Shown here: in pieces, positions 9,424 to 63,139 of the stretch
Position numbering within the stretch: position 1 is the first letter of the stretch
Layout of the letters: each line of letters opens with the position of its first letter
DNA from: Cordylochernes scorpioides
Lineage: Eukaryota > Arthropoda > Arachnida > Pseudoscorpiones > Chernetidae
DNA length: 64,000 nucleotides
Reading direction: 5' to 3'
Assembly (NCBI GenBank): GCA_030710605.1
Contig: CP092874.1
Location: 75,666,324-75,730,323, forward strand
Program-made: the position numbers and the translations under genes
Notes under the pieces: model-generated
Databases searched by the model: none
The model's input: only the letters and a program-made list of their open reading frames with translations
What the model was told of the DNA's origin: nothing

Positions 9424-9832
9424 TGAAAAAATAGTACAAAGTGACATAGTACTGGGATAAGGTGCATAAATTATTAAAAAGGCATCTCCTTATTATGTAA
9501 CTGAAAATTGCTGATGGCTTGCGCTATCTATCGGAATAAATATCAACTATTCTAGTTGATTTTTAATTATTCCATAATTGGCCAAATACCCATTGCTTGT
9601 TCCCGGGCCGGACGGGGACGGAGCGCTCTCGCGTCACACACCCGCCCTAAAGAGGCTCCACCCGGTCCGTGGTTAGCTTTTCTTGATTAATCAAGAATGG
9701 GTATCTGGCCAATTATGGAATAAAATAAAAATTAACGAGAATAGTTGATATTTATTCTGATAGATGGCGTAAGCCATCAGCAACTTTCAGTTGCACGATA
9801 AGGAGATGCCTTTTTCATAACAGGTGCCAGTG
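9424..9832. repeat. Fold-back family C element with GC-rich loop
   Basis: Arms of about 125 bp: 9476-9600 (AAAAAGGCATCTCCTTAT, GGCTTGCGCTATCTATCGG, GGCCAAATACCCA) pair with 9697-9823 in reverse. The loop at 9600-9680 is GC-rich and itself forms a stem (GGACGGGGACGGAGC with GCTCCACCCGGTCC). A short palindrome CTTGATTAATCAAG precedes the right arm. No coding sequence. Confidence 0.85.
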
Positions 9833-13650: not shown

Positions 13651-14594
13651 TTTTTCTGTGAAGAACCTGTTCATTTTTCTCATTGTAAATAACATAAGCT
13701 AGGTTGTTCTATTCGAGCGATACCTAGTAAAGTTATTTTGGAATAGGAACAGGCTATAATCAAGTGCTATAATCAGGCTATAATACGAGCCATCTAGTGG
13801 AACAGATATCAACTAAACATTGATTTAACCTGTTCTCCTTGATATTGTCGCGGAGATAAATAAAGCAAGGGCAAGTTTGGGGATAATTAATTTATTATAA
13901 GGGGTAATTATAGGGAGAGAGAGTTTTGTACAACTTACCCCCAGTTAAAGCTAATCCCGAATCAACGGCGTTAGCCACCGTCCCGTTTTCCTTATTTACA
14001 GATCAGCTTCCCAGAAGCCCCCACACCTATGGTCCCCCCCGGGGTCCAGGGATGATTGACAGTTGTCCCATCTGGATGGAGCTACTTGACAATATTTTCA
14101 TTTTTGAAAATTATTTTTTCAGAGAAGAATATGTGGAAAGAACAGCGTTGAAAATAATACTGAAAGAAGATAATCAATTTATGGATTTGTGAGAGAGAAA
14201 CAAAAAAAATTTCGCGAAAACATTTTAATTTCCGTTAAAAGAATTAAAGATATAGGATGGAAATATTGCTAAAAGGGATAATGGAAGCTTGTCCAGAAAT
14301 ATTTCAAAAAGGACAACAGGGAAAAGAGACAACTAAAGAAAAGATGGAAGGCTTAGACTTGGTTGAAGAAGAAGGAAATTGAGGAAAAAAGAAAGTGGTT
14401 GGAGAAGAATAAAGTTACCAGAGCTGTACGACAACTTAGAAACTTGGTCAAAATTGCTCCAAAAGTTTTTTTTATTTAGACTTTTTGAAACTATATATTA
14501 TTAATAATTTAGAAATGGATTGCGTATAGTTTTAGCTTTAAGTTCGAGGATAATTTAAAAAATATATTTATTTTATATGATTTAAAATGTAAAC
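13651..14594. other. Unannotated stretch
   Basis: An open frame at 13926-14192 lacks motifs. Polypurine-rich sequence at 14280-14420. No TE family recognised. Confidence 0.4.
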
Positions 14595-17589: not shown

Positions 17590-18285
17590 CTACCGTCTGT
17601 TATTGGAATAACAATTGTTACGACGCACGAATCTTTTCTCATTTTTGTATTATAATGACAACAATTAGGGTTCAATTAATTTAACAATTGATATGACACG
17701 AATCCTTTCCCATTGATGTGTTATAGGAATAACAATTGGTACGACACGAATCCTTTCTCGTTGCTGTGTAATAGAAATAACAATTGGTACGACACGAATC
17801 CTTTCTCGTTGCTGTGTTATAGGAAAAAATTGGTACACGACAAGAATCCTTTCTCAATTTGGTGTTATAGGAATAACAATTGGTTCGACACGAATCCTTT
17901 CTCATTGTTGAGTTATAGGAGTTTTAATTGGTACACGACACGAATCCTTTCTCATTACTGTGTTATAGGAATAACAATTGGTTCGACACGAATCCCTTCT
18001 CATTGTTGTGTTATAGGAATAACAATTGGTATGACACGAATCCTTTCTCTTTGTTGTGTTATAGGAATAACAATTGGTACACGACACGAATCCTTTCTCA
18101 TTGTTGTGGTAGAGGAATAACAATTGGTACTTCACGAATCTTTTCTCAATTTGGTGTTATAGGAATAACAATTGGTTTGACACAAATCCTTTCTCAATTT
18201 GGTGTTATAGTAATAACAATTGATACAACAAGAATCCTTTATCTTTGTTGTGTGTGTGTGTGTTATAGGAGTAACAATTGGTGTG
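17590..18285. repeat. Tandem array, about 50-bp unit, about 13 copies
   Basis: Unit core GGAATAACAATTGGTACG, then ACACGAATCCTTTCTC and TTGTGTTAT. Spacing of successive AATAACAATTGG blocks is about 48-52 bp. Copies vary (GTTCG/GTACG, occasional insertions). Open frames on both strands through the array are by-products of the repeat. Confidence 0.9.
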
Positions 18286-18738: not shown

Positions 18739-19254
18739 TGTTACGTAGAAAAAAAGGGGCGCATTCCAGAATAGAATGTTTTATAATGTTCAAAAATGTT
18801 GTAGAGAAATCGGAGAACAACTGATTGGCCAATCTAAAGCGATTGCGAAAGGCTTAGCGCTGGCAGCTTTCTGATTGGCTGACCAACCATGACCGTTCTG
18901 GAAAGATCTACTTCGGGATATATAGGGATGAGGAACTCATGCTGAGGAGAAGAAGAACGAAGCTACGTTGTGTACTCCAAGCAAACGCTGCTGTCTCAAG
19001 AGGTCGGACTGCTGTTTACCGCCGACGCTGGTGTACTTCCTGGAAGATTCTAGAAAGTTCTACCAACTTCTGTCTCCTGTTCTGCGCCTGCCTTCCTTCA
19101 CTGTACTGCAGTTGGAGAGTTTGTAACTACTGTTCTTTATTGTTGTTTTATTTTTGCACTCTCCTGTAATTATTTTATCGATTAGACTAAAATAAAGTAC
19201 TAAAGATCCTTTGTATCCACGAGACTTATTCTTTTTCAACGAACAACGCAACCA
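18739..19254 (+). repeat. Probable solo LTR
   Basis: Starts TGTTACGTAG after ATAT and ends near CAACGCAACCA, an imperfect inverse of the start. Internally there is a TATA-like GGGATATATAGGG near 18916, GC-richer transcribed-looking sequence, and AATAAA at 19190. GC content and promoter/poly(A) order fit an LTR of about 515 bp. No second copy or internal region is present. The right boundary is uncertain. Confidence 0.45.
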
Positions 19255-19815
19255 TATAATCAGTTTCATTCTCATACTTTTTCTCGATTTAACAAACAAT
19301 CTTCAGACCAAGTCTTCGGCCTTTGTACTTGTGCATAGCTCATTATTAAGCCTTTGCACTTTCCAATTCAATCACAATTCAAGTTCATCAAGTATGTGAA
19401 TACACTCATGGACAAAACTAAAGGAAGTTTCATATTATATAAGAAGCATAAACCACTCCTTATTTGCTTATATAATGACAGAATCCCCATACATGTAAAA
19501 TCGAAAACGTTCTTCATAATAATAATAAAAATATATGTACATGTTAAAAAGTACAACTTTCTTAATTTTTTTTTGCTAATGAGTGTATTTAAAAAATCAA
19601 AGGAATGTTGTTCTTAAATCTATTTGTTTAGGCCAACATTGAATTATTGATCTTCAAATTTATGTTAAAAAAAAAATTGATTATTCTTTGTATTTTTAAT
19701 ATTTTACATTTTAATTGGCTCGTTAATTGACAGAGATGATGTTAAAATGTTTGAACTGTCAATTGTTCTTCTCTTTTGCTCTGATGAAAGCAGATTTTAT
19801 TGATATATCGAGAAT
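19255..19815. other. AT-rich stretch, nothing recognised
   Basis: Short open frames only, without motifs. Confidence 0.4.
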
Positions 19816-21460: not shown

Positions 21461-21694
21461 AATTAAGTCCTCGATCGAATGGGTGCAGAACGCCAGCTGA
21501 TAAAGTTCATAAAACAACGAAAACTAACGTTTTCTGGACATGTGATGCGCGGATCAGCGGGAGAGACATTGCTGACAGTGTTGGAAGGAAAGCTCCAGGG
21601 GAAGAGATCGAGATGGACTGGACGACATACCTACGAAGAGATGAAGAGGATGGCGGAGGAAGTATGGAGAGACCATGTGGCCCACCCTCAGTAG
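21461..21694 (+). pseudogene. RTE-type LINE ORF2, C-terminal fragment
   Basis: Reads VLDRMGAERQLIKFIKQRKL, then TFSGHVMRG, LEGKLQGKRSR and AEEVWRDHV, the usual C-terminus of RTE-clade ORF2 proteins (R-KL-FGHV-R, then GKR-RGRP-like and W-x-x-x). RT and endonuclease are not present upstream. The end of the ORF runs directly into the 55-bp array, whose units contain the same GGAGAGACCATGTGGCCCA. Confidence 0.85.
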
Positions 21695-22430
21695 AGGAAG
21701 GCATTGAAGGAGGGAGATATGGAGAGACCATGTGGCCCACCCTCAGTAGAGGAAGGCATTGAAAGAGGGAGATATGGAGAGAACATGTGACCCACCCTCA
21801 GTAGAGGAAGACACTGAAGGAGGGAGATATGGAGAGACCATGTGGCCCACCCTCAGTAGAGGAAGGCATTGAAGGAGGGAGATATGGAGAGACCATGTGG
21901 CCTACCCTCAGTAGAGGAAGGCATTGAAAGAGGGAGATATGGAGAGACCATGTGGCCCATCTTCAGTAGAGGAAGACACTGAAGGAGGGAAGTATGGAGA
22001 GACCATGTGGCCCACCCTCAGTAGAGGAAGGCATTGAAGGAGGGAGATATGGAGAGACCATGTGGCCTACCCTCAGTAGAGGAAGGCATTGAAAGAGGGA
22101 GATATGGAGAGACCATGTGGCCCATCCTCAGTAGAGGAAGACACTGAAGGAGGGATATATGGAGAGACCATGTGGCCCACCCTCAGTAGAGGAAGGCATT
22201 GAAAGAGGGAGATATGGAGAGACCATGTGGCCCATCCTCAGTAGAGAAAGACACTGAAGGAGGGAAGTATGGAGAGACCATGTGGCCCACCCTCAGTAGA
22301 GGAAGGCATTGAAAGAGGGAGATATGGAGAGACCATGTGGCCCATCCTCAGTAGAGAAAGACACTGAAGGAGGGAAGTATGGAGAGACCATGTGGCCCAC
22401 CCTCAGTAGAGGAAGGCATTGAAGGAGGAG
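21655..22430 (+). repeat. Tandem array, about 55-bp unit, about 14 copies, derived from the LINE tail
   Basis: Unit: TATGGAGAGACCATGTGGCC, then CACCCTCAGTAGAGGAAG, then GCATTGAAGGAGGGAGA. Spacing is 55-56 bp. Copies are very similar, with alternating subtypes (GGCATTGAA/GACACTGAA), suggesting higher-order units and fairly recent expansion. The first unit is the last coding segment of the RTE fragment. Confidence 0.93.
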
Positions 22431-27151: not shown

Positions 27152-29415
27152 TTGGATCGGCACTTCGGAAACGAGGAACCAGAGGACGAGATCTCTCTGA
27201 ACACTTGTGGTTTGGTGGATCCGCCCTTTTCTGAGAATGAGGTGAAACTGACGGCTTTCAAGTTCGGGAAAAGGAAATCTCCTGGTCCCGAAGGGGTCGA
27301 TAAAACGGTCGTGAAAGCCCTGTTAAGAATGCACCCATCACTTCTTGCCAGGTTTTTCAATAGGTGTCTGGACACTGGTACTTTTCCTGAGGCATGGAAG
27401 GTTGCTCGAGTAGTGCTTCTCGAAAAGTCTGGTAGAAAGGGTAATTCTCCTAATGATTATCGTCCGCTTTCTTTACTAGTGTGTCTAGGTATGGTCCTGG
27501 ATAGCCTACTAGCTCAGCGACTGAAGCACTGGCTAGAGAGTAATGAGCTCCTTTCCTCTTTCCAACATGGTTTTAGGGAAGGGAACTTCACAACCACAGC
27601 TCTGAACGAGGTGTTAGAGGGGGTTGAGATGGGCTTAAATAAGGGTGCTTGGGTTCTTTTCGTGGCCCTGGACATTGATGGTGCGTTCAGCTCCATGAGC
27701 TGGAACAAGCTGATGAGAAATTTGATGGACATGGGTTGTCCTGATAATTTGTGCAGCTTGGTTCGTGACTTCCTGAGGGATAGACGGATTAGCCCTCAGT
27801 TTTGGTGGGCGGAAGTTGGAAAGAAACTGTGCTAGGGGTTGCCCCCAGGGCTCTTGCTGCGGACCTATTCTGTGGAATATCCTGGTAAACACCATTTCCC
27901 AGGAGGAGCTCCATGAGGGAGCCAGGCTGGTTCTCTATGCTGACGACCAGTTCCTCATCATTGAGGCTGCTTCGAGAGCGAAAGCTGAGAAGTGTGTTGA
28001 AGCTTCTCTCCAAATCCTCTCGAATTGGGCCCATGATTCTGGCCTTAAGTTCAATGTCTCCAAAACTAAAGCCCTCAGCTTTAAACCTAGGGACATAAGA
28101 ACTAAAAGGTAAGGGATCAAATGGGAGCACAAGCCGGCTATCCGGATGAAAGGACGGAGGGTAGTCATGGGGGTGGTCATTGATGACAAGATGGGTTGGC
28201 AATACCAGGCGGAGGAGATGGTGGCGAGAGGCAGGAAGGCGTTGTGCAGGCCTGTCCTGGTTGGCTCTCAACAGGGGGGGGGGGAGAAGGAGGGTACTAT
28301 TTTTAGGAACCTCTGCCTCTCCTGTGTCGAGCCAATCCTGCTATAACAGGGATCAGAAGGTGGCAAAAACTCTAGAGAGCGTGCAGAGGACAGCGGCACT
28401 CAGAATCACAGAGGGATATCACACTACCAGCAGTGAGGCCTTTTTGGTCCTCGCTGGGCTTATTTCCCTGTGATTGAAACTAGAGGAGAATACCATCAGA
28501 CAGAAGATCTGGGAGAACAGGGAAGATGCCCTGGGACTTGAAGCGGGTGCCCTGGAATGGAAGAGGGACCCAAGGAAGCCTCCGCAGTGGTTGCCAAAGT
28601 GGAATTGGAGTCCTGGAGGGCCGACAGGGATTGGCACGGTGGTTTTCACTGATGGTAGTAAGCCTGGAACCAATACTGGAGCTGAAGTAGTGATTTTCAC
28701 TAATGGAGAGCTGATCTTCCAAGAAAGCTTAACACTCAAAGTGGACGAATTGGTCTTTTCAACCGAGCTGGTTGCGATCAGGGTAGCCCTTAGAGTGTGT
28801 ACCGAGAAGAACTTCAGCCCGGACCGCCTCTATTCAGATTGTATGTCGGCCCTCGTCGCCATCAATCTGGTGAAAGGGCAACTCGCGCATCAAATAATCC
28901 AGGAGCTGGAGATGACAACGCGGGCTCCGGAGCTCTATTGGGTTAGGAGACACAGCCTCATCGAAGGTAATGAGTTCGCAGACAGGCTCACTAAGGCAAG
29001 ATGCTTTAGAGATAGATCACTGAGGACCCCAGTGACCAAGAAAGAAGTTTATAGGAGGATCAGGGGGCACGTCCAGGACTTATGGTTGGACAGATGGAGG
29101 AACAGTGTGAAGGGGAGAGTGGTATATTCAATTGGGTAACAACACCCAAGTACCTCTGTAAGGTAATGTCCCACAAATTCATTAGGGTAGTTCGGGACAT
29201 GGGCCCTTTCCCAGGAGTCTCCACAGATTTAAAATTAAGAGAAACCCTGATTACGTCTATGATGAAAGGGATGTGGATGCACGCCACTACGTCTTGGATT
29301 GTCCAAGGGTAGTGGGTGTGCAGGAAGAGAGAAGGAGGGCGAGGGGCGCGATCGAGAGTAAGCTGCTGAGAAATCACAGCAAGCTTCTTGAGAAAGCCCA
29401 CGACGTGGCTGCTTA
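27152..29415 (+). pseudogene. R1-like LINE ORF2: RT, RNase H and C-terminal zinc finger, broken
   Basis: RT: KSPGPEGVDKTVVKA, EAWKVARVVLLEKSG, YRPLSLLVCLG, FQHGFREGN and VLFVALDIDGAFSSMSW (motif A). A frameshift near 27825 leads to RGCPQGSCCGPILWN (motif B) and LVLYADDQFLII (motif C). Further breaks: TAA near 28110, a frameshift at the G run near 28270 and TGA near 28471. RNase H at 28474-29139 has VVFTDGSK, FSTELVAI, LYSDCMSAL and LIEGNEFAD, so the catalytic acidic residues are present. The C-terminal finger is seen at 29268-29310 (ARHYVLDCPR). Ends with TAG near 29414. The endonuclease is missing. GC content is clearly higher than the neighbouring LINE, so it is a different family placed end to end. 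Confidence 0.9.
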
Positions 29416-29590: not shown

Positions 29591-29922
29591 TTGGATATCG
29601 TTACTTGGCTTATGAGTTGAACAGAATAGCAGCGAAGTGCATGCTTCGGGTGCCGGCTTGTGGACCGAAAGGTCTGGGTGGCCATCTACTTCTAGGGTGT
29701 ACCAACTGTGCTTAGGTGGGATCCTCCAGTTCTTGTTTATTTTTGTTTTGGCTACTGTTTCTATTTCTTTAAAAGTAAGTTTATTTTTCTGTAGCAAGGT
29801 TTCTTTTGTGCCTTTTTTCTCTAGCGCATCAGCAGCTTCATTGCCTTCAATGCTAACATGTAAGGGTATCCATTGAAGGTGAATATTTGAGCTATTGAGA
29901 GTTTTTGGAGATAACCAATCTC
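29591..29922 (-). pseudogene. LINE RNase H fragment
   Basis: Minus-strand frames read SPKTLNSSNIHLQWIPLHV, SIEGNEAADALEKKGTKE and KINKNWRIPPKHSWYT: the end of a LINE RNase H domain (His-x-x-x-x-GNE-AD) and its downstream linker. Only this piece is present, joined directly to the R1-like inverted fragment. Confidence 0.7.
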
Positions 29923-30180
29923 CTCCATCTGTCCAACCATAAGTCCTGGGACGTGCCCCCTGATCCTCCTATAAACTTCTTTCTTGGTCACTGGGGTCCT
30001 CAGTGATCTATCTCTAAAGCATCTTGCCTTAGTGAGCCTGTCTGCGAACTCATTACCTTCGATTAGGCTGTGTCTCCTAACCCAATAGAGCTCCGGAGCC
30101 CGCGTTGTCATCTCCAGCTCCTGGATTATTTGATGCGCGAGTTGCCCTTTCACCAGATTGATGGCGACGAGGGCCGACAT
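29923..30180 (-). pseudogene. Inverted partial copy of the R1-like RNase H
   Basis: Reverse complement of 28841-29099 with very few differences: MSALVAINLVKGQLAHQ through GNEFADRLTKARCFRD. One inserted base in GHVP(G)L shifts the frame. Together with the original it forms 259-bp inverted arms about 0.8 kb apart. Confidence 0.9.
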
Positions 30181-31588
30181 ACAATCTATTCCGTATATTT
30201 ATGGGTTACCGAAAATTCACAAAGAAAACATTCCCCTCAGACCTATTATTTCTTATCACCTCTCACCCGCCATGCCCTTATCTCGATTCTTATCATCATA
30301 CCTAACTCCTCTCATCCGTCCAACAAATAGATATTCAATAACCTGTATAACTGATTTTATAAATGAATTGAGAAACTCAAAACCAATGACAGATTGCATC
30401 ATGGGGTCATTTGATGTTGTGGCCTTATTCCTCAGTCTTCCTCACCATTTAATTATGAATAATTTGAAAGAAATATTGGAACGAAACTTAACTAATCCTG
30501 CAGAAAGCTCAAAAATAATTACTTTATTAAAATTATGTCTATCAACATCTAACTTCAGGTTTGAAGATAAACTCTACCAACAGATATGTGGCTCTCCTAT
30601 GGGAAGCCCGCTTTCATTGATTGCGGCGGAGATTGTCATGTCTGAATTAGATAGATGGATCAACAGTTTTGAGGAATTAGGTATAAGAAAATGGTATAGG
30701 TATATAGGTGATGTATTTTGCGAATTCCAAAAAGGAAAAGAGCATCAAATTTTAAATACTCTAAATAGATATAACTCCCAAATCAAATTTACTATGGAAT
30801 TAGAAACCAAATCGGTGTTACCTTTTCTTGATATCCTAATTTTAAAAACAGAACAGAAATTCCACTCCACAGTCTACTATAAACCTGGCATAGAATCTTC
30901 GTATTTGAATTTTAAATCATACAGCCCAATAGGACACAAAATATATATAGTGAAAACGTTAACTAAACGAATATGGACACATTGTTCTCTACCGATTTTC
31001 AAGAAAATTGAAAAACGAAATATCATCCAAAATCTGAGAAATAATGGATTTCCAATAGTTTTTATATATACACATTTCTACAACCAATCCCTCTCTATAA
31101 AACAAACAATATACCGGGCAAATAGTTATCTACAATATTCACCTGCTAATGAAAGATTATCCCATGAATTGAGGAAATATGGCATAAAATGCTTATTTAG
31201 AAATTCCCGAACCATAGGCCAGATCATTAGAAACCCCATAACCAAATCCAATAATAATACAGAGTCTAGAAACAAGCAGAACGCTATATACTTCATCTCC
31301 TGCCGACAATGCAATGCCTCTTACATAGGAGAGACCAGCAGATCAATAGACATAAGAGTTAAAGAACATAGCCGTAATATAAGAAACCAAGATAACAAAT
31401 CCTTAATATTCCAGCACGAAAATTCTACAGGTCATCAATTCAACCTACAAGATGTCACATGTCACTTCCATAGCATATTCTCCAAATACAATAGACTCAT
31501 TCTAGAATCTTTAATCTCCAAAGACAATAATAGCATAAACAGAAGAATTGATCTACCCCAACAGTTCCAGCATATTCAACGCAGATGA
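30158..31588 (+). CDS. Penelope-like RT plus GIY-YIG endonuclease, N-terminally truncated, RT active site altered
   Basis: The open frame is 476 codons; its first eight come from the antisense R1 fragment, so the start Met is accidental. RT: YIYGLPKIHKENIPLRPIIS, SFDVVALFLSLP (motif A), CGSPMGSPLSLIAAEIVM (motif B), WYRYIGDVFC (motif C) and PFLDILI. In motif C the first of the paired Asp residues is Gly, so polymerase activity is not expected. C-terminal GIY-YIG: AIYFISCRQCNASYIGETSR, then a conserved Arg (DIRVKEH), His and the NSTGHQF segment. The unit is otherwise intact over 470 codons, which points to recent loss of RT function. Full-length relatives are considerably longer at the N-terminus. 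Confidence 0.9.
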   Translation: MMATRADIQSIPYIYGLPKIHKENIPLRPIISYHLSPAMPLSRFLSSYLTPLIRPTNRYSITCITDFINELRNSKPMTDCIMGSFDVVALFLSLPHHLIMNNLKEILERNLTNPAESSKIITLLKLCLSTSNFRFEDKLYQQICGSPMGSPLSLIAAEIVMSELDRWINSFEELGIRKWYRYIGDVFCEFQKGKEHQILNTLNRYNSQIKFTMELETKSVLPFLDILILKTEQKFHSTVYYKPGIESSYLNFKSYSPIGHKIYIVKTLTKRIWTHCSLPIFKKIEKRNIIQNLRNNGFPIVFIYTHFYNQSLSIKQTIYRANSYLQYSPANERLSHELRKYGIKCLFRNSRTIGQIIRNPITKSNNNTESRNKQNAIYFISCRQCNASYIGETSRSIDIRVKEHSRNIRNQDNKSLIFQHENSTGHQFNLQDVTCHFHSIFSKYNRLILESLISKDNNSINRRIDLPQQFQHIQRR

Positions 31589-31760
31589 TGCCAAACCCCC
31601 AACGAAACAGTACCCTCTACAACTGCCACTATTTTTATTTTTGAATTTTTAAATGTATTTCTCTGAATCTCTATTGTATCTGTTGCACGCATTTGCGGAG
31701 CCAGTGGCCTGATGAAGCGCGACCGCGCGAAAGCTTGCCTCCCATACCTTAATAAAGAAA
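30181..31760 (+). mobile_element. Penelope-like element, 5' truncated
   Basis: The left edge is the end of the R1-like inverted fragment; the coding region starts mid-RT. The ORF ends at 31588, and a 3' region of about 170 bp follows with a hammerhead-like motif (31704-31740) and AATAAA at 31751. Penelope-like elements are known for an RT joined to a GIY-YIG nuclease and for hammerhead motifs near their ends, both of which fit here. Confidence 0.85.
31704..31740 (+). ncRNA. Hammerhead ribozyme-like motif in the Penelope 3' region
   Basis: CTGATGA (31709-31715), stem II GCGC/GCGC around GACC, GAAA (31729-31732), then a palindromic AGCT and T. Flanking GGC (31706-31708) pairs with GCC (31737-31739) as stem I. 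One extra A (31716) lies between the CUGAUGA box and stem II, so activity is uncertain. Position just after a Penelope ORF supports the call. Confidence 0.6.
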
Positions 31761-39006: not shown

Positions 39007-40521
39007 CACTGGTCCGCAAAATTAAAGGAACAACACATGTTTAAGAAAAAGAAAAGTTATATTAAGGGATATATATCAATTTTTTGTATATTCAAAAGCT
39101 TCCATGAATTAAGAGAGTATGTAAAACAGAAAAACAAATAAAGTTGTTCCCAATATGCGAAATACCACTGTCTACTTTGACTCCGCCTCCAGCACGTGCC
39201 TGAGTCTTTCTCAAAGCGTCCTAATTTTACGCTCCACTATATTTTTATTGAACCTTTTTGGTTTTTAAAGTTTTCCTGGCTTATAGGCAACATTTATCAC
39301 AAGAAAAAAAATAGCAAGCTATTGGAAGGATGGAAGCAGGCCAATCACAGGCAGAAGTAGCAATCTGGCTTGGAGTGACAAGAAACGTTGTCTCAAGGCT
39401 TTGGAAAAAAATTTCAAACGGCAGCTAATGTTGCCAGAACACCCGAACAAGGACGGCCAAGGGTCGCAACGTTAAATCAAGACCGTTATTTGAGTCTCCT
39501 TGTGCGTCGCAATAGAAGAATGACAGCATCGCAACTACGAAGTGACCTCAATGCAGCTACAGGAGTCTTAGTATCAACTGATACAATACGCAGAAGGCTT
39601 CACAAGAAGGGCCTCTATGCTCGACGACCCATAATTTGTGGGCCATTGACACCACCTCAAAAGAGAGCAAGGAAACTTTGGTGCAGACAACATGTCGCCT
39701 GGAATCCAGATGAATGGAGGCGTGTAATGTTCACTGATGAGTCCAGATTCTCTCTAAACAGCGATTCTCGTCGTGTCTTTGTCTGGAGAGAGGTAGGAAC
39801 CAGAAATAATCCCCGGAATATGGTTGAAAGGGATCCCTACAGAAGCCAAGGTTTTATGGTCTGGGCTGGAATCTTCTTGGGCGGTCGCACAGCACTCCAT
39901 ATTTTTCGGCAAGGAACCCTGACTGGACAGAGGTATCGGGACGAGATCTTGGCAGCATATGTGATGCCTCAAGCATTGGAAATGGGAGAAAACTTTCTTC
40001 TAATGGATGATAAGGCCCGTCCACATAGGGCTGGTGTGGTCGACACTTTTCTCCAAAACCATGCAATTGCTCGGATGAATTGGCCAGCTCGATCCCCAGA
40101 CCTAAATCCCATTGAGCATGTATGGGACAACCTAGGACGGCGGATCTCATCCCTCCAACCCCCTCCTAGAAACACTGATGAGCTAGAAACAGCCTTAACA
40201 CAAGAGTGGGTGTTGATTCCACAGGAGCAGATAAACTCCCTAATTCTTAGTATGGGTCACCGATGTAGAGCCTGTCTATCAGTTAAAGGCGATCACACCC
40301 CATATTAACAACAATATCCAAGATATTTATGCACTGACTGCAAGAAGATCATTGCTTGACCGGCTAATTTGCATAAAATACGCGTTAGAATTCTTTGATT
40401 TCGGGTATTCTAATCAATAATGGAATAATAAATTTGTGTATAAAATTTCATTGATAAATGTTCAATAAAATTTGAGATAAACGAAAAAAATATGTTGTTC
40501 CTTTAATTTTGCGGAGCAGTG
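39007..40521 (+). mobile_element. Tc1-type transposon (1515 bp)
   Basis: Inverted ends CACTGGTCCGCAAAATTAAA and, reversed, CACTGCTCCGCAAAATTAAA, extending into GGAACAACA, flanked by TA at 39005-39006 and 40522-40523. The transposase is inside on the plus strand. TIRs are near identical, suggesting a fairly recent insertion into the family B hairpin end. Confidence 0.93.
39318..40308 (+). pseudogene. Tc1 transposase (DD34E) with one frameshift in the DNA-binding region
   Basis: The catalytic part (39388-40308) is open: RVMFTDESRFSL (first Asp), ENFLLMDDKARPHRAG (second Asp; MDDK where relatives have QDN) and SPDLNPIEHVWDNL (Glu), with exactly 34 residues between second Asp and Glu. The N-terminal HTH is in another frame: AIGRMEAGQSQAEVAIWLGV and VSRLWKK from 39318. 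The frames join near 39412 at an A run, so one indel separates them. The HTH frame is also closed upstream by TAG at 39312. The intact catalytic domain but broken N-terminus indicates recent inactivation. Confidence 0.9.
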
Positions 40522-41975: not shown

Positions 41976-42143
41976 TATAAATATAAAAAGAGAAATTTTC
42001 CCAACTAATACAACTCAAAATGGAGACTTTACTGGCACATAAAGTAAAAAAAAAAATTGTCAAAAAAAAATTATGATAATAATAAATTAAAAAAATTATT
42101 AACAATATATACAAATTATATAATGAAATAAATATATATATAT
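41976..42143. other. AT-rich spacer
   Basis: Nothing recognised. Confidence 0.4.
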
Positions 42144-42543
42144 AGAAGCAATGGGCGCTTCTCCCGTCGAAATAAACGTCAAAACCTGACGCCATCTATT
42201 GACCGTCGCCGCAACTATTTTTTCCTTGATTGATTTCCTCCCGGCAAATTTTACATCTATATTCTAGCCATAGATTTGGCCCAGCCACATTGCCAGCAAA
42301 ACACCTCTTTGGTAGATTGTGAAGATTCCATTAGATCCCGTGTGGATCTCATGGAATAAAGTCCGCCCTAGACTGACGAGGGCCATTAGCCCGAAACCAT
42401 GGTCTCTAGGTGGACGCTTCTCAGTTTGCCAAAGCTGATGTTGTGGCTTTGTCACCGACCCGAGGCCGCTAGTTGCGGCGACGGTCAATAGATGGCGTCA
42501 GGTTTTGACGTTTATTTTGACGGGAGAAGCGCCCATTGCTTCT
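42144..42543 (+). mobile_element. Inverted-repeat element (400 bp) carrying a hammerhead ribozyme
   Basis: 73-bp arms 42144-42216 and 42471-42543 are inverted copies with one difference (AGAAGCAATGGGCGCTTCTC at each end, CGTCAAAACCTGACGCC inside). The interior of about 255 bp holds the hammerhead at 42367-42410 and no ORF. A 58-bp block just inside the left arm (CCTTGATTGATTTCCTCC through CTAGCCATAGATTT, 42223-42278) recurs directly after the right arm (42545-42600). Not a canonical DNA transposon end; class uncertain. Confidence 0.85.
42367..42410 (+). ncRNA. Hammerhead ribozyme, all conserved core positions present
   Basis: Stem I CCTAGA (42367-42372) with TCTAGG (42405-42410), 6 bp perfect. 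CTGACGA 42373-42379. Stem II GGGC (42380-42383)/GCCC (42389-42392) with loop CATTA. GAA 42393-42395. Stem III ACC (42396-42398)/GGT (42401-42403) around AT. Cleavage-site C at 42404 (GUC triplet). All invariant residues of the family consensus are met. Stem III is part of the palindrome ACCATGGT, so a dimeric fold is possible. Activity is inferred, not shown. Confidence 0.85.
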
Positions 42544-42810
42544 ACGGATTGATTTCCTCCCAGCAAATTTTACATCTATATTCTAGCCATAGATTTATAT
42601 ATATATAATAAAGGCTATATTTCCCGTCAAATAGACGCAAAAACTACGCGACATTTGACGGTTCCCTCAAACCAGCAGAATCGGGTTAGTGATAAAACAG
42701 CAACAACAGCTTTGACAAATTTCAAACGCCCATCTAGAGACCATGGTTTCGGTCTAATGACCCTCGTCAATCTAGGGCGGGTTTTGATTTCATGAGATCA
42801 GTAAGGGATT
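42544..42810 (-). mobile_element. Second, diverged copy of the hammerhead element, inverted
   Basis: Reverse complement aligns with 42340-42530: GATCTCATGAAATC, then CCCGCCCTAGATTGACGAGG, ACCATGGTCTCTAG, then a far end with TTTGACGGGAAATATAGCC. It is head-to-head with the first copy and shares the CTAGCCATAGATTTA block between them. Confidence 0.75.
42734..42777 (-). ncRNA. Decayed hammerhead ribozyme copy
   Basis: Minus strand: stem I CTAGA/TCTAG kept, stem III palindrome ACCATGGT and GTC kept, but the CUGACGA box reads TTGACGA (invariant C changed) and stem II has a G/A clash (GGGT/GACC). Expected to be inactive. Confidence 0.75.
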
Positions 42811-43612
42811 CACGAAATTTTCAGAATTTTCCAAAACGGTGTTTAGTTATAAATGCGGCTAGGTCAATTGGTGTGTCTCCTAAGTTTTCAATTTGACTTC
42901 GAGGTATGTCTCTAGTTGAAAAAAAAAAACGTATTGTGAAATGGATACTCCCCTCCTTTCTGAGAGACAAAGATCCCAGGATGAAGTTGTGGAAAAATGG
43001 ATTCCAGTTGCGGGGGTATGGCCATGTGTCAAGGTGGACAGGCGCCAAAAACAGCAGTCTTGTGTGGGGGAGGACAGAGTCTGGTCACGTCGGGGGCGAG
43101 AAGTCGTGGAGAGTTGCCTCTGGGCGTATGGATGAAAATTTTTGCCGGAAAGACATTGATCTATAAAAAAAAAAAAGGTCTCGTCATAGATGGTGCATAG
43201 TTATTGAGTCTATTCTGACGGAAGATGTGAACCTTTCCTTTTAAAGATCAACATTCTTTAGGCAAAGTTTCCATTTCTTTAATATTTTATTGAAAGCCCG
43301 CAAGCTTCCGAGTTAAAATTCTTTTCTCCAGGCCTCTATATAAGTTTTATCTTAACATTGAACTGAGGGAACAAATGTTTATATTTTATTAATAAATTGT
43401 AAATAATATCATTTATCTTAGTTTATTTTCTCATTAATATTTGTAGCAATTGACTAAATGTCTAATAAAACATTTTGAATTGTTAATTGTCTTATCTAGG
43501 GGTTTCCTAATGGATATCTCTCTAGGTAAACACATTTGAAATACATTTTGAAAGGTCTTTGTCTAGTCCAGTCAGTAAGAGATTTTACAAACGGTATTTT
43601 TTTATTTTAGTC
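42811..43612. other. Unannotated stretch
   Basis: A minus-strand open frame at 42821-43048 and plus frames at 42906-43200 have no recognisable domains. Directly follows the second hammerhead copy, so it may be part of its parent element. Confidence 0.35.
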
Positions 43613-45434: not shown

Positions 45435-46005
45435 GATGATTCTGTAGAGGAGTCGTACGTCCTCCGAGGCCACTTCGTTATGTCCATGGTACCTGAACTG
45501 TACGTCCTTCGAGGCCACTTCGTTATGTCCATGTTACCTGAACTGTACGTCCTCCTAGGCCACTTCCCCCGATCGTTTGCGTCCACGGTTCCAGAACTGT
45601 ACGTCTTCCGAGGCTATTTTTCCCGGTCGTTACGTCCACGGTACCTGAACAGTACGTCCTCCGAGGCTACCTTTCCCGATCGTTACGTCCACGGTACCAG
45701 AACTGTACGTCTTCCGAGGCCACTTACCCCGATCGTTACGTCCACGGTACCAGAACTCTACGTCTTCCGAGGCCACTTCCCCCGATCGTTTCGTCCATGG
45801 TACCTGAACTGTACGTCCTCCTAGGCCACTTCCCCCTATCGTTACGTCCACGGTACCAGAACTGTACGTCTTCCGTGGCCACTTCCCCCGATCGTTACGT
45901 CCACGGTGCCTGAACTGTACGTTTTCTGAGGCCACTTCCCCTGATCGTTACGTCCGCGGTACCAGAACTCTACGTCCTCCGAGGCCACTTCTCCCGGATC
46001 ATTGC
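45435..46005. repeat. Tandem array, 45-54-bp unit, about 11 copies
   Basis: Core ACCTGAACTGTACGTCCTCC, then GAGGCCACTTCCCC, CGATCGTTACGTCCACGGT. The left two units are shorter (45 bp). Both strands are open through the array (101 and 156 codons) because unit lengths are near multiples of three; no protein family is implied. Confidence 0.9.
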
Positions 46006-46109
46006 GACCACTATGCATTAATAATATGCCTTTAAGGATCGCAAACAGATCCTATATTCTCTGCCTGTTAAGGCCAAAATGAACCAATGATAATTTCCCA
46101 CTTGATATT

Positions 46110-46318
46110 ATGCTTGAAATGTATAATTTTATAATATATAATGGGTTGGGTGTGGCCAAATATTTTTGGAACAAGTTAAATCAACGTTTAGCTGCTTCTT
46201 GTTACACTAGATGGCGCGCTGTGCCGCTGTATCTAAAATGCTCATATAAGCGGTCAGGAAATGCCATTTGTTTTTATTATATAAATTTGAGTTCACAATT
46301 CAATCCAGTTACAAAATC
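46110..46318. other. Unannotated stretch
   Basis: Contains an ACTAGATGGCGCGC block, similar to short motifs common in TEs here. No gene. Confidence 0.35.
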
Positions 46319-49259: not shown

Positions 49260-49440
49260 ACATTTCCAGACTTTCGCCATCTGTCGGAATAAATATAAAC
49301 TAATTGTTTTTTTTTTAATTATTCCAGAATCGGCCAAATAAACCTTTTTGATTAATCAAAAAAAGCTAACCTCATAAGCGTTTCAGGCTTTTGGCCTTCT
49401 TCAGCGTAGTGCAAGCTATAGCTCAACGACCGAAGAAGCT
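49260..49440 (-). repeat. Fold-back family C half with hammerhead-like loop
   Basis: The left part (CGCCATCTGTCGGAATAAAT, AATTATTCCAGAATCGGCC) is the family C arm as at 9524-9590. It is followed by TTGATTAATCAA and a hairpin segment (49376-49410). The right arm is lost where the LINE at 49456 begins. Confidence 0.7.
49376..49410 (-). ncRNA. Hammerhead-like core, probably decayed
   Basis: Minus strand: CTGAAGA, stem II AGGC/GCCT around CAAAA, GAAACGC. Box and stem II fit the family. Stem III is not palindromic and stem I pairs poorly, so it is probably a degenerate copy of the kind at 56242. Confidence 0.45.
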
Positions 49441-52897: not shown

Positions 52898-53905
52898 TTA
52901 AAGTTCTGGAAATGAAACACACATGCCTTCCTTCCCATCCTTCAAATGTGAAAGGGTTGCTCCTTTTCCCACCTGACTTGCATCACAAGAAAGAATCAAA
53001 GGAAAATTTAGGGAATAATGCGATAAAAATGTGGTCACATCTAATACATTTTTACAGGAATTGAAAGATCCATCTGTCTCAACATTCCAAGACCATTTCA
53101 CATTCTTTTTTAATAGGTTGTATAAAGGATATGCTAAATCTAAAAGATTTGGCAAAAATTTACTATAAAATGACAAAAATCCAAGGAAGCTTTTTAATTC
53201 AGTTATATTCTTAGGAAATGGACAATATTTTATGCAAGCTAGCTTGTCCTTCAAGGGATATATACCAAAACCATTAATTGTATGTCCAAGATATTCAATC
53301 TCATTTTTAACAAATAAGCACTTATTTTTGTTCATCGTAAAATTATTTTCTTTAAGAATATTAAGTGTTCTCTTAAGAATATCTAAATGGTTTTCCAAAT
53401 TCTCTGATGCAATAAGAATATCATCAAAATAAATGTAAACATCAATGATTCCCGAGAAGAAGGATTCTATTGTCTTCTGAAATATTTCAGAAGCAGTCTT
53501 TATACCAGAAGCCAAACGATTATATTTATATAAACCTTTGCGGGTGGAAACAACCAAATACTTCTTTGAAATATCATCCATCTCAATTTGATGGTAAGCC
53601 TTTGACAAATCTAATTTAGTAAATAATTTTTTTCCTTGAAAATTACTTAAGACTGAATCAATGTTAGGGATAGGATATTTAACATCCTCCAAGTAAGGAT
53701 TTAAACTATTTTAAAAATCAGCGCAAAGTCTAATTTGACATCTGGTTTTGCAACACAAACAAGTGGTGAAGCACCCTCACTTCTATCTATAGGAGACAAA
53801 ATATTTAAATAAACCAATTTATCAATTTCATCTTCCACTAGTTGTTTTAAGGCAAAAGGAACTTGTCTGAACTTGTAAAACTTTGGGATAAAGCCAGCCC
53901 TTACA
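52898..53905 (-). pseudogene. Gypsy reverse transcriptase and start of RNase H
   Basis: 53905-53700 carries the RT N-terminus in broken frames (YKFRQVPFALKQ, EGASPLVCVAKPDV). 53692-52898 is open: FTKLDLSKAYHQIEMD (motif A), DVYIYFDDILIASEN (motif C), FLGFLSFYSKFLPN and LILSCDASQVGKGATLSH (RNase H Asp). A frameshift near 53700 separates the parts, and the ORF ends within RNase H. Confidence 0.85.
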
Positions 53906-56119: not shown

Positions 56120-56345
56120 TTTGGAAACGCATTTAACATGTTAAGCGTATTTACGCAAGTTTGGCCTTAAATACCCATTTCTTGGTTTCTCAAGAAGCCT
56201 CTGGGACCAAAAATATTTTTGGTCGCAGTGGTACAGCCTACTCCACGCTGACGAGCGCCAACAGCGCGAAACGCGTTCCTGGATGGCTTTTCTTGATTTA
56301 TCAAGAAATTGGGTTGGCCAAATATCAGGGAACAGGCTAAATCAG
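56120..56345 (+). repeat. Fold-back family C member carrying a hammerhead
   Basis: GGCCTTAAATACCCATTTCTTGG at 56163 faces CTTGATTTATCAAGAAATTGGG and TTGGCCAAAT at 56291-56322. Inside are a small hairpin (GACCAAAAATATTTTTGGTC) and the hammerhead at 56242-56284. Same layout as 9424-9832 and 49260-49440. Confidence 0.7.
56242..56284 (+). ncRNA. Hammerhead ribozyme, near-complete
   Basis: CTGACGA 56248-56254; stem II GCGC (56255-56258)/GCGC (56264-56267), loop CAACA; GAA 56268-56270; stem III the palindrome ACGCGT (56271-56276); cleavage-site T 56277. Stem I TCCACG (56242-56247) with CCTGGA (56278-56283), five of six pairs with one C/C mismatch. All invariant core bases are present. Stem III has no loop, so only a dimer could fold properly. 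Confidence 0.75.
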
Positions 56346-56550: not shown

Positions 56551-58601
56551 CAGTCTACTCTCGTTATAACGCCACCATCCGGATTTTGCAAAAAAGCGGC
56601 GTAAGGTGAGGGTGGCGTTGTATCGAACACACACGTTTAAAATGTGAAATTCAAAGATACAATAAATCATTTATAACAATTACTAATAACAATTTATACT
56701 CTAAGTCAATATATAGAATGCCGACATTAAATAATTAATATGATAAATAGAAAGCATTAATTTATAATTCATCATAAAAAAAGTAATTACATTTTCTCAA
56801 AAGAAGTCTGTGATCCCAACTTGTCTTTTCTCTCCCTAACTTATGGCATAGACACGGCGTAACAAACCCGCAGATAGATTGACATCGTCAGATGCTGCTC
56901 TCTTGGAGTGCTCAAGAAACAACAAAACTATCTCAGCAGCTGTTCTGGCTTCCCATAACGATGGTAGGCGCGGAGTCACTTGTTGCATCATCATCCTCGC
57001 CAAGTTCTTCTTTCGCTGTAACAGTGGACACCAGAAAATTGTCATCTGTTGGCTTCACTACCGCCTCCTGGGAATCATCAACCAGTTGAAACTCCCTTTC
57101 AGTCATCAAATTCTCTGGTGTAATAGCGAAGATGTCGCGAATGCGATTGAGCAGATTTCCATAATTAAGAGGCTCAACTGCAGCAGTAGAAGTGAAGCGA
57201 ATGCCTGTGTGATTCAGCAGTTGCCCAACAGAATCCCAAGCCATTTTACAATAGCGCACAGCGTAATCCAGACGTAATTCTGTGGGTAGATGGGCATCCG
57301 CCAATTCCACCTTTTTCTGGAGTTGAAACTTGCGATATTGAGCCTTGAAACTTTTGATGATGCTGTGTGTTTGTTGCTGAGACCATCATTAGGGATGCAG
57401 TGAGACGTAGCGTTATCTAACAACAGTAGGATACGACGTCCTTCAGAGTCAAGCTGCTTGTTGAACTGCAGTAGCCATTCTTGAAAGATGCTAGAGGTCA
57501 TCCATGCTTTGCTGTTAGGTGTGTAAGTGCAGTAGAAGTGTGGATTAAAGTTTCTGAAGCATCGAGGCTTTACCGATTTTCCAATAATCAGCAATCGCCG
57601 CTTGTCTGTTCCAGTAGAGTTGCAGCACAGTAGAACAGTGATTCGTTGCTTCATCCTTTTGACACCACGGCAGTTTTCATCTTTGTTAGCAAGTGTTCGG
57701 TCAGTAATGAGCTGAAAAAATAATCCTGTTTCGTCTGCATTGTATATGTTGGCTGGGTCATATCCGGAGTTCGTCAGCATACTGTTCAAATTTGTAAGGT
57801 GTTCATCAATAAAAAGCTGGAGAAATCGATGCGCTTTCCCCACAGAGCCGTCGTTGCGAAATATGGAATCTCCCTTTAAATCGCTGCAGCCACCCACTGC
57901 TGTACTTGAAATTTTCTGGTACGTCCAACTGCCCGCCAAGTTTTTTTGCCTTTTCTCTTAGGAGGTCATCAGTAATAATAATATTATTGGCACGCTTTTG
58001 GGTAAACCAGTTGAAGAGAGCGTCTTCCAAGTCACTAAATTTTCCGACACTTTGAAGAACCAACAGTATAATTTTCCCACTTCTCAGCCTGAGTGAGAAT
58101 ATCACGGACAGTTGTTCGTGGAAGTGAGAAACGCTCTCCAATCTCATTCTTCGACATCGTAGGGTTATTTCTTGCCAACTGGCATATCTCCTTCTTTTCA
58201 ATGGTGATCGATTCACGTTTACGCTTTTGGGAACTCATGATACGACAATAAGGTTGTTGTGTTGACGTTAGCAAAGGATGAAGCGACTGTATATGTCCCA
58301 GGCACAAGAAGGAAATGGGTCTGCTGGCTGTTCACACAATCTGTTGTGTCAACAGCAGGCAAAGTCCGGTGCCGCTGGCGGAAAAAAATGCAGATAGGAA
58401 AAGGGGAGGGGGAGACGTTGTGAGCGGCGCTATAACGAGTGTTTTTTGCTACTTGGGATACGAGAAATCAGCGGCGGAAGGCGAACAGCGAGGGAGTGGC
58501 GTTATATTGAGAAAAATACATTGATGTCGATTGGGACAAAACGAAAAAGCGGCGTGAGGCGAGGGTGGCGTTATATCGAGTGGCGTTATAACGAGAGTAG
58601 A

Positions 58602-58650: not shown

Positions 58651-59986
58651 TACATATTAAAATAAAAAAGGCATTTCCTGACCACGAGCACATGTGGTCA
58701 CCTGACCCACTTGTCTTTTATTTTTTTCTATTGTTGGCTTATTGTTGGCTATTTGTTTTTTTTATACACATATATATATGTGTTGTAAACCCGGGTAAGC
58801 CAACAAGTGAGTTGGAAGCAGTCGGGGTTGAGTGGCAAGGCGTGCAGAGTGGGAAGTCCGCACGGGACAGTAAGGACAAAGTTTGGGATCAAAAGACGCG
58901 CTCTCTCAGTACGTCTCAAGTGGCACCAGAACCAGGGGGAAGTTGAGGATTAACAGAGGAAAGCTCGGCGTCCAGCCTGAAGCCGCGGGGACCGTCGTGA
59001 GATAATCATGGCCTAGAACTGAGCGGCCTGTCCCAAAATATCCACTGTAACCTAACTAACTGTCAACATCCGTACCAACGCCCCTTTTTTGTCCCTCCCT
59101 GGATCCCCCGAGTGTCCGGTGGCAAGCTGGTGTCACTTTGAGACGACTAGAAAAGACGTCATACTTTATTACTTACATATCTCATTGTTTAAATTACGAT
59201 ATATATATCTGTGAAAATGATAAAAAATAATAAAAAAGGTCAGGTGTTGATATTGAAAATAAAAAAAGACATATCCTGACCAATAACATGAGCGTTTTCT
59301 AGATGGCAGAGCGCCATCTAGTGGTGCAGAGATTAACAAAACGTTGATATAGTGTTTACCCTGATATTTGACGAACCAATTTTCTTGATGAATCAATAAA
59401 AGCCAATTCTTAAAATTTTAAAATTGAGTTTTATAAGTATTTATAAATATATATGTTGCAATATATTCCAATATATATATTCCCATGTGTTATATAGTTA
59501 TAGTGAAATTACCAAATTGACAAAATAAAATTTCTAGTGAATGACCGCCGGCGCCAGGACAGGAAAAGGTCCAAAAACATGTCGGGGTTCCCAGGTGTGC
59601 CCTCTGTTTGCTCAAACAGATTAGCCCGCTTTGAGACACGATGATTGACAGACCCCTCTCTACAGATCTGCCCTGACCGTCGTCGGCTACACTTACTCTC
59701 TCGCCATCTCTATGGTGACATCCAACATGCCTTGTCCTTTTGTGTAATTCATTTCACACCTTGAAACCACTCTAAACATTGTGGCCACCACGACTGCAAC
59801 CAACATGCCACACTAATGACATACAACAGAATAACAAAACTACATTACTAAATATATATTTTTGAAAACCCGTTAGGTTGACTTTATTGACATTATCTTT
59901 GGAAAATAATGTATATTTCTCTAAAAATGTTACATTTGTGTCGGTGGGTAGGTGTAAAAAACTGTAAAAACTAACGATATATACAT
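58651..59986. other. Unannotated; GC-richer blocks at 58780-59150 and 59540-59820
   Basis: Two GC-richer blocks without domain-bearing ORFs. They might be remnants of LTRs or an untranslated leader of the downstream gypsy element, but no repeat pair or primer site was found. A self-complementary CAGAGCGCCATCTAG block sits near 59308. Confidence 0.35.
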
Positions 59987-61745: not shown

Positions 61746-63139
61746 TTGCGACTTCAGGAGTATGAAGTCACCGTTTGCTATAAAAACGGTCGCAAGCACA
61801 AAGACGCTGACTGCCTTTCCAGAAGCCCATTACCTGACACTTCGGAAGAAACAGAAAGAGATATACCTTCCTTGACAATATTTACTGAGGTAGAAAAGGA
61901 ACAAAAACTAGATCCTTCATTGGCAAAGATGATGAAAAACTGTGATGACCCGAATTTTAAGAGATTTGCGATTATGAATAGAATACCTTACAAGAAAAAT
62001 TATGATCCTTTAGGACGACCTTGGTTGTTAGTGGTTCCAAAGTCCTTATGTTTGGAGGTGCTTAGATCATTTCATGGCGCCCCTACAGCCGGACATCTAG
62101 GGTTTGCCAAAACATATGACAGGATACGCAGACGAATTTATTGGCCTGGTCTCTTCAGAGGTGTTCGAAATTATGTCGGACATTGCAGAGAATGCCAACG
62201 GCGCAAAAGCACACCTCAACTACCACCTGAAAATCTTAAACCCATAATTTCCTCCTCAACTCCCTTCCAGAAAATAGGTATAGACTTGTTGGGTAGATTC
62301 CCTTTGTCTAGAGATGGCAACCGTTGGGTGATCGTTTTTGACTGATTACCTTACCAAGTACGTAATAACGAAAGCACTACCGACCGGAGGAGCTGTTGAA
62401 ATAGCAAATTTTGTATTGAACGATATTATACTCAAGCACGGAGCTCCTAGAGAAATGATAACGGACCGAGGACGCTCGTCTCAATCGAAGCTCGTAAACG
62501 AATTAACTAGAATGTGTGGAATGTCTCAGTACTTTACAACGACCTATCACCCACAGACCAACGGCCTGGCCGAGAGATTAAATAAGACCCTAGGATACAT
62601 GTTATCGATGTACGTTGATGTCGAGCAGAAGAATTGGGACTCTATTTTACCGTTCGTTACTTTCGCATATAATGCGGCTAAACAAGAAACCACTGGGTTT
62701 TCACCATTCTATTTAGTTCATGGACGAGAGGCGGAAACAATGCTGGAGACTCTATTACACTACCAGCCAGTTTATGAAAACGACGAATATCTGAGCCAGT
62801 TAATTATAGACGCCGAAGACGCCCGACAACTAGCCCGCTTACACACCCTTAGAATTCAGGACATTGATAAGAGACGGTACGAATCAAGATATAGGCCTGT
62901 TTATTACAACGTCGGCGACCTGGTCTGGATCTTCACACCCGTGCGTAAAGTCGGCTTATTCGAAAAGTTTTTTTAAAAAAATATTTCGGTCCATACAAGA
63001 TAACTAAAAATATTTCGGACGTTAACTATGAAGTAATGACAGTGGACGAATCTAGCAGGAGGAAGAGGTCCAAAGATGTAGTTCATGTTTTGCGGATGAA
63101 ACCCTACAAAGATCCTGGACAACAGAACAGTGACGTTTA
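61746..63139 (+). pseudogene. Gypsy integrase with zinc finger and GPY/F-like C-terminus
   Basis: 61746-62345: HKDADCLSRSPLP, then the HHCC finger (AGHLGFAKTYDRIRRRIYWP, CRECQRRK) and FQKIGIDLLGRFPLS (first Asp), stop at 62343. 62338-62976: KHGAPREMITDRGRSSQS (second Asp) and HPQTNGLAERLNKTL (Glu), so D-D-E is complete but in two frames. An A run at 62970 shifts the frame; the last part reads KYFGPYKITKNISDVNYEVM and VLRMKPYKD, ending at TAA near 63137. Confidence 0.87.

Follow-up and report, generated by a model that had tools for sequence, protein, structure and literature searches.

Background

Animal retrozymes have been described as non-coding, multi-copy tandem repeats of about 150-450 bp carrying a type I hammerhead ribozyme, with published RNAs of ~170-400 nt, duplications of more than 4 bp at the insertion site and, as a general but non-defining trait, a GC content below 50% (PMC7229834). 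Further traits ascribed to them are the lack of PBS, PPT and LTRs and the expression of unit-length RNA in linear and circular form. Their existence is established, and Penelope-like elements (PLEs) have already been suggested as their mobiliser (PMC7229834, PMC11722881). PLEs were named as a strong candidate in the first of these sources, and the autonomous element was left open between LINEs and PLEs in both, in 2020 and in 2024 respectively. As for PLEs themselves, the Anolis element is reported to cut and extend both strands of AT-rich targets and to initiate reverse transcription at two internal sites next to each other, separated by the 30-40 bp that make up the tail (PMC11167929). In rotifer Penelope copies, the pLTRs are described as head-to-head, one of them carrying a 31-bp tail, and the duplications as 8-10 bp long (PMC3846280).

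Here we analysed a 64-kb stretch of the Cordylochernes scorpioides genome (the window, 64,000 nucleotides of TE-rich eukaryotic DNA at 36.6% GC) together with related copies in the host genome. We estimate at roughly 80% the probability that the element studied is a retrozyme whose RNA, probably circular, was inserted by the PLE machinery via two-sided target-primed reverse transcription.

The hammerhead ribozyme

The hammerhead reported in a preliminary description at positions 42367-42410 of the plus strand is real. All core bases are present (CTGACGA, GAA, the A-U pair and C17 at 42404), and cleavage is predicted after 42404. Stem II consists of 4 bp (GGGC/GCCC), as had been described. Stem I does contain the six pairs initially counted, but it is longer: beyond a 2x1 internal loop, four extra pairs (GTCC 42361-42364 with GGAC 42412-42415) extend the motif to 42361-42415. 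Stem III, first given as 3 bp, is more realistically made of 2 bp (42396-42397 with 42402-42403) beneath a palindromic CATG tetraloop, because a third pair would leave a loop of 2 nt. The axolotl HHR_Amex2 hammerhead (PMC7229834), which differs in sequence and host, likewise has a two-pair stem III capped by a tetraloop; the activity of the present motif is a prediction. The open stem being stem I, the ribozyme is of type I.

Searching the window with a full three-stem descriptor, we retrieved this hammerhead and one weaker match on the minus strand (19233-19306), whereas 100 first-order resampled windows gave a mean of 0.01 and a maximum of 1 match per window. The covariance search that had been suggested as a check was run with Rfam and reported no hammerhead at the gathering threshold over the whole window, nor at E<=10 when the query was shortened to 1401 or 121 bases. 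The identification therefore rests on the descriptor, the core bases and the comparison within the family. In an energy model of the isolated 55-nt segment, an alternative fold reached -22.2 kcal/mol versus -14.9 kcal/mol for the hammerhead fold. We infer that the motif is active as a ribozyme.

The simpler pattern CTGANGAN13GAAA matched 6 times in the window against 0.17 expected. One match (56248, plus strand) belongs to a PLE pLTR and another (49381, minus strand) sits in a weak pLTR match of 68% identity. Two others (29020, plus, and 29980, minus), lying inside an inverted duplicate that overlaps an RNase H-like ORF, were taken as chance. A looser pattern leaving stem III free was uninformative (9 matches versus 6.3 expected). 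A hammerhead-like sequence, CTGATGAAGCGCGACCGCGCGAAAGCTTGCC, was noticed at 31709-31741, about 120 nt 3' of an RT-containing ORF (30158-31588); with a stem I of only ~3 bp by eye, it could be a small variant or a chance occurrence.

Repeat unit and classification

The host genome (2.62 Gb, 24 contigs) was searched for further copies, as had been proposed; in what follows, fetched loci are numbered with the prefix L and contigs with the prefix C. One bantam-like locus of the host scored 60.1 bits, slightly below the 61-bit cut-off, and is suggestive of a protostome. The exact 32-nt hammerhead core occurs 8774 times on both strands, and the reversed-pattern control 0 times. Mapping of the genome copies defined a repeat unit of 319 bp with one type I hammerhead each, numbered from the base following the predicted cut (unit 1 = 42405). 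Over 75 mapped pieces with an identity of 88% or more, variation is lower in the 44-nt hammerhead (0.96%) than elsewhere in the unit (3.15%), with 25 of the 319 circular windows of 44 nt being more conserved than the hammerhead. Random loss of core bases in otherwise conserved copies, named beforehand as an observation that would speak against the ribozyme, was looked for and not seen.

Judged on sequence, the element is an animal (non-LTR) retrozyme. It combines a type I hammerhead with a full catalytic core (on which Rfam gave no report), a short tandem unit whose 319 bp fall within the published range, duplications longer than 4 bp in the family (unreadable in the window copy) and no ORF of at least 100 aa overlapping 42142-42596, in agreement with the non-coding character attributed to it from the start. 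Its GC content, at 50.2%, lies marginally above the stated limit of 50% (PMC7229834). A plant LTR retrozyme, with a type III hammerhead in its LTRs and 4-bp duplications, was rejected: stem I is open and the duplications are longer. Nor is the retrozyme itself a PLE, as no ORF with RT and GIY-YIG domains is found in an insert devoid of any ORF of at least 100 aa. Its anatomy is nonetheless that of Penelope/Poseidon-type PLEs as far as these are described (PMC11167929, PMC3846280), with a hammerhead upstream of the proposed start sites, inverted head-to-head arms, AT-rich targets with short duplications, and two internal 3' ends 30-40 nt apart with a tail at one end. This tail measures 36 nt in the family, the window copy being an exception. 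Among the differences, the retrozyme unit encodes no protein, and no homology to PLEs was detected beyond the hammerhead core in the 30 GIY-YIG loci compared.

Structure of the window insertion

By unit mapping, the young insertion covers 42142-42596 and is bordered by a TA tract on either side. It is made of a minus arm (42142-42217) running from unit 141 down to 66, a 10-nt filler (42218-42227) and a plus arm (42228-42596) comprising units 143-319 then 1-192. The left outer end corresponds to the site called A below. The right outer end, at unit 192, is atypical, and its junction has a single occurrence in the whole genome. The insertion is thus larger than the element of 42144-42543 initially delimited, and treating a 400-bp inverted repeat as the unit was a misreading: the unit is the 319-bp repeat and the palindrome is the centre of a (-)(+) insertion. 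The inverted arms do differ by a single mismatch, as first reported, but they are 75 nt long instead of 73 (42143-42217 and 42470-42544) and correspond to the stretch, from unit 141 to 66, that the short minus arm shares with the plus arm. On sequence grounds, we read them as two cDNA arms and not as transposon terminal repeats. In the window alone, the near-perfect 75-nt arms and the TA-rich target would also suit a MITE, that is a non-autonomous DNA transposon with 75-bp terminal inverted repeats and a TA duplication, the hammerhead being there by coincidence.

Beyond the insertion and a TA tract lies an older, inverted retrozyme copy of 75% identity (42622-42867, minus strand), whose hammerhead (about 42731-42776) is degraded: C3 has been lost from the core, which is TTGACGA. 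In the window, the plus core consequently precedes a degraded minus core. Since both flanks of the young insertion are TA tracts, any duplication around the window copy is unreadable.

Arms, joints and divergence

The fetched inserts are mostly head-to-head, with minus units on the left and plus units on the right. Each arm extends from a fraction of one unit to about eight tandem units (L027). Among the first 100 cores along contig C1, 12 neighbouring pairs lie within 1.5 kb: 9 are -/+, 2 are +/+, 1 is -/- and none is +/-, the three same-strand pairs being spaced by exactly 319. The inner joints are scattered across the unit; of 31 joints, 15 show an overlap of 1-26 nt, 12 contain filler and 4 are flush. 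These variable arm lengths and scattered joints argue against a MITE.

Tandem and inverted units also occur in satellites, and some of the loci look by eye like segmental duplicates (L012/L018, L015/L022, L016/L023 and L034/L038). Both points would be accounted for if the arrays and palindromes had arisen by satellite amplification at the DNA level (unequal exchange, hairpin replication) in place of RNA-primed insertion. We regard this origin as very improbable given the dispersed sites, the defined ends, the target duplications and the fixed pair of ends described below.

Pooled divergence was 0.7% between units of the same arm, 1.2% between arms and 5.4% between loci, L027 supplying almost half of the within-insert positions. 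In the per-locus comparison, from which units 128-181 were left out, divergence between arms was below the between-locus median in 24 of 28 loci and not below it in 4, and divergence within an arm was below it in 13 of 18 and not below it in 5; between-arm divergence was at or below that of the nearest other locus in only 8/28. Pieces of less than 86% identity were dropped for divergence and end mapping, and those of less than 88% for hammerhead variation. Internal divergence was 0 of 1275 positions in L026 and likewise near zero in L027. This pattern fits the copying of one monomer, best a circle, and a homogeneous linear multimer would also fit.

A linear multimeric transcript could indeed have been mobilised by a PLE with the hammerhead dispensable for insertion, a variant whose odds overlap with those of our preferred explanation. 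Homogeneous source arrays could explain the identical units, and hammerhead mutants of the Anolis PLE are reported to insert in vitro unaffected (PMC11167929). Against it, the hammerhead is conserved, and multi-unit inserts with near-zero divergence such as L026 and L027 are most simply derived from one circle. We hold this variant to be unlikely, with a share of the odds that is far from negligible.

Outer ends

Two positions in the unit, ~141 (A) and ~177 (B), account for most outer ends and are separated by 36 nt. They were mapped on 35 non-duplicate inserts, drawn from 37 fetched loci and the window, with both ends in view in 33. One A and one B were found in 28 of these 33 inserts (the left end being A in 14 and B in the other 14), while A/A and B/B were never found. 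The five exceptions are L015 (162/162), L040 (121/141), the window (141/192), and L034 and L039, in which no left minus arm was mapped. We left out L018, L022, L023 and L038 as segmental duplicates, and, from the end counts, L026 (assembly gap at the left) and L030 (left end beyond the fetched stretch). Fragment rows were also left out (L012 4022-4072, L015 2667-2720 and 3462-3515, and duplicate rows of L018 and L022). The short plus arm of L033 falls below the 86% filter, and this insert was counted as A/B from the unit mapping. The retrozyme pair at L015 2042-2498, with its likely duplicate L022, terminates at unit 162 on either side, and its flanking sequences are inverted repeats too; the two-site rule does not account for it.

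The fetched loci are biased toward the structure of the window, as they were chosen as best matches to its 400 bp. Three samples were not chosen by that structure: the core-order list given above, four -/+ inserts and the end pairs of C1. The four inserts, taken from the nine -/+ core pairs on C1 irrespective of their ends, were all A/B (4/4), the right end of L076 mapping to 150 and reaching ~144 (A) only after subtraction of the duplication. Over the whole genome, 1130 A ends and 1334 B ends are fused to a TA tract, against 1 for a third unit position, the single position used as control. In the first 172.6 Mb of C1, the ends joined to a TA tract number 63 for A and 100 for B; the patterns select TA-tract targets, and most of these 163 ends have no partner in the lists. 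Twenty pairs of neighbouring ends lie within 4 kb: 18 are facing (-/+) and all 18 are unlike, the two others being same-strand (A-/A- and B+/B+). Shuffling the labels gave on average 8.6 unlike facing pairs and reached 18 in 0 of 20000 trials. The outer ends of an insert correspond to two distinct positions of the unit and not to the mirrored identical termini of a TIR DNA transposon or MITE. The RNA stage and the retroelement relationship put forward in the preliminary description are strongly supported.

The end structure also bears on which machinery is involved. A LINE enzyme could have moved the retrozyme by twin priming (5' inversion), as in L1, and LINE-type RT and RNase H pieces are present in the window. 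In favour of a LINE, twin priming also leaves duplications and inverted arms whose joint shows microhomology. With twin priming in L1, however, the 3' terminus forms one of the outer ends and the second site of priming has no known fixed position, whereas the retrozyme ends are of two kinds, paired one of each. Moreover, the insert ends displayed with their flanks lack an A-rich 3' tail. We therefore consider mobilisation by a LINE improbable.

Relative to PLEs, the rule of one end of each kind is stricter than the tail described as 'optional' for these elements. Relative to the animal retrozymes of Cervera and de la Pena (2020), what is documented in the present family is both arms, the two end sites and their pairing; the words inverted, head-to-head and tail are absent from the main text of that article (PMC7229834). 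No report of two-ended retrozyme insertions was found in the literature searched, a search that left bioRxiv and many subscription journals outside its range.

Target sites and duplications

A TA tract of at least 8 nt flanks 19 of 37 inserts on both sides and another 7 on one side. Exact duplications of at least 10 bp, not mostly made of TA, were found in 11/37 of the inserts' own flank pairs versus 10/1330 mismatched pairs, one of the 11 (L035a) running into a neighbouring insert. Examples are TAAGCTAATATAGA (L012), TCCACATATGAT (L019), GTATCTTTATTA (L028) and AAAGATCACT (L079). At a threshold of 9 bp, the counts were 15/37 versus 54/1330. These duplications are longer than the TA of a MITE, and with the unequal ends and variable arms they leave that possibility next to no credit.

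Retrozyme or PLE inserts adjoin the ends of other such inserts in the window (42597-42616) and in L009, L027, L030, L032 and L035. The spacers between them are short and often TA-rich, as if an insertion left a fresh target for later ones. In 6 of the 37 fetched loci (L009, L024, L027, L030, L032 and L035), a PLE piece and a retrozyme insert were observed at most 100 nt apart.

Proposed mode of insertion

The unit, the polarity of the arms, the two ends, their pairing one of each, the target preference and the duplications are all read directly from the DNA. We infer a circular template and the action of a PLE enzyme, and the insertion may be pictured as follows. Tandem copies would be transcribed and the type I hammerhead would cut the transcript into 319-nt monomers, which, by analogy with published retrozymes, would be circularised. 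A Penelope-like enzyme, with RT and GIY-YIG endonuclease domains, would bind the RNA and cleave an AT-rich target, the breaks in its two strands being staggered by ~10 bp. The 3' ends released in this way would serve as primers for reverse transcription, one target strand starting at the internal site A (~141) and the other at B (~177). Several rounds of the circle may be copied, and each arm would then hold units in tandem. Finally, the two cDNA arms would be joined centrally by microhomology or a short filler to form the palindrome.

The secondary structure predicted for the RNA is consistent with a highly paired circle, as for published animal retrozymes (PMC7229834). Folded as a circle, the 319-nt unit has a predicted energy of -122.8 kcal/mol (z -3.9) and the window unit of -118.8 kcal/mol (z -3.6), each against 100 first-order resampled sequences. 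The proposed start sites fall in a predicted domain (42488-42579, plus strand) closed by a stem pairing 42488-42495 with 42572-42579, i.e. units 84-91 with 168-175. In this prediction, site A is inside the domain and site B at its foot. C168, in the outermost inner pair of the closing stem, is an A in the window copy. The closing stem is not clearly kept in the older L012 copy, and the start-site domain is thus to be taken as a fold prediction only.

How the one-of-each rule might be enforced can be suggested tentatively, at somewhat less than even odds. A PLE dimer would hold one retrozyme RNA, or one folded start-site domain, asymmetrically, so that its protomers start once each at A and B and extend one strand each of the same staggered cut, both arms being rolled off the same circular RNA. 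If this were true, the retrozyme would be a minimal natural PLE substrate, consisting of a start-site domain and a circle-making ribozyme. More generally, insertion by the PLE machinery predicts two RT start sites on the 319-nt RNA, and the end structure points to PLEs for the open question of animal retrozyme mobilisation. The one-of-each rule also implies that the two start sites seen with a PLE in vitro could be halves of one integration and not alternatives.

Penelope-like elements in the genome

At least 146 GIY-YIG matches were found in the genome (150 of 17015 first-look candidates having been scored). No intact single PLE ORF with RT and GIY-YIG domains was found among the frames read, the domains lying in separate broken frames; in L060, an RT-containing frame ends ~440 bp upstream of the GIY-YIG match. 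NCBIfam profiles added nothing decisive for the GIY-YIG loci. In L046, L051 and L054, GIY-YIG lies close to the N-terminal end of its frame, and these loci were not counted among the Penelope-type examples. A hammerhead descriptor gave a match in 2 of 30 GIY-YIG loci (L058 and L073). Comparison of the retrozyme unit with these 30 loci revealed homology limited to the hammerhead cores, apart from a 29-nt stretch in L050 (E 0.61) that looks like chance; a shared 9-mer, TAGATGGCG, was not significant. Likewise, no PLE with a start-site domain homologous to that of the retrozyme was found among them.

A pLTR family with its own hammerhead lies beside the GIY-YIG matches of L073 and L058 and ends mostly at ~+160 and ~+206 from the cut; its inserts have inverted arms. 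In the predicted fold, the first end is located in a hairpin loop and the second lies past the hairpin. Of 55 pLTR matches, 12 end at the first site (query 280-290) and 24 at the second (325-349, a bin made wide by a T run), 8 run on and 11 end elsewhere. By eye, five pLTR inserts have one of each end (L073, L009, L024 and two in L032), as do further pairs at C15:31337589, C20:15674015, C21:63384696 and C24:64595924. Misfits, also by eye, are L011 (+160/+186), L058 (+113/+160), L044 (~+153/+160) and the pair at C11:48448489, with both ends at the second site; other rows have one clear end. Given these exceptions, the end rule looks looser in the PLE family than in the retrozyme.

In the window, seven clusters match one Penelope-like pLTR, several of them weakly (68-79% identity): 9665-9818, 13789-13846, 46146-46280, 49275-49420, 56156-56342, 58654-58735 and 59223-59405. 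The cluster at 56156-56342 is a plus-strand fragment of the L073 family (91% identity) that keeps the full hammerhead core, at 56248. That at 58654-58735 is a small inverted pLTR remnant with one outer end at the +160 site.

Other features of the window

An inverted duplicate of 99% identity (28836-29101 and 29921-30187) overlaps LINE-like RT/RNase H ORFs. Other ORFs encode a Tc1-like transposase (39388-40308), RT/RNase H (52898-53692), a DDE_1 transposase (57214-57939) and an integrase zinc-binding domain (61746-62345). Minisatellite arrays are found at 1982-2477 (34-bp units), 17682-18253 (48-bp), 21655-22428 (55-bp) and 45520-46011 (53-bp).
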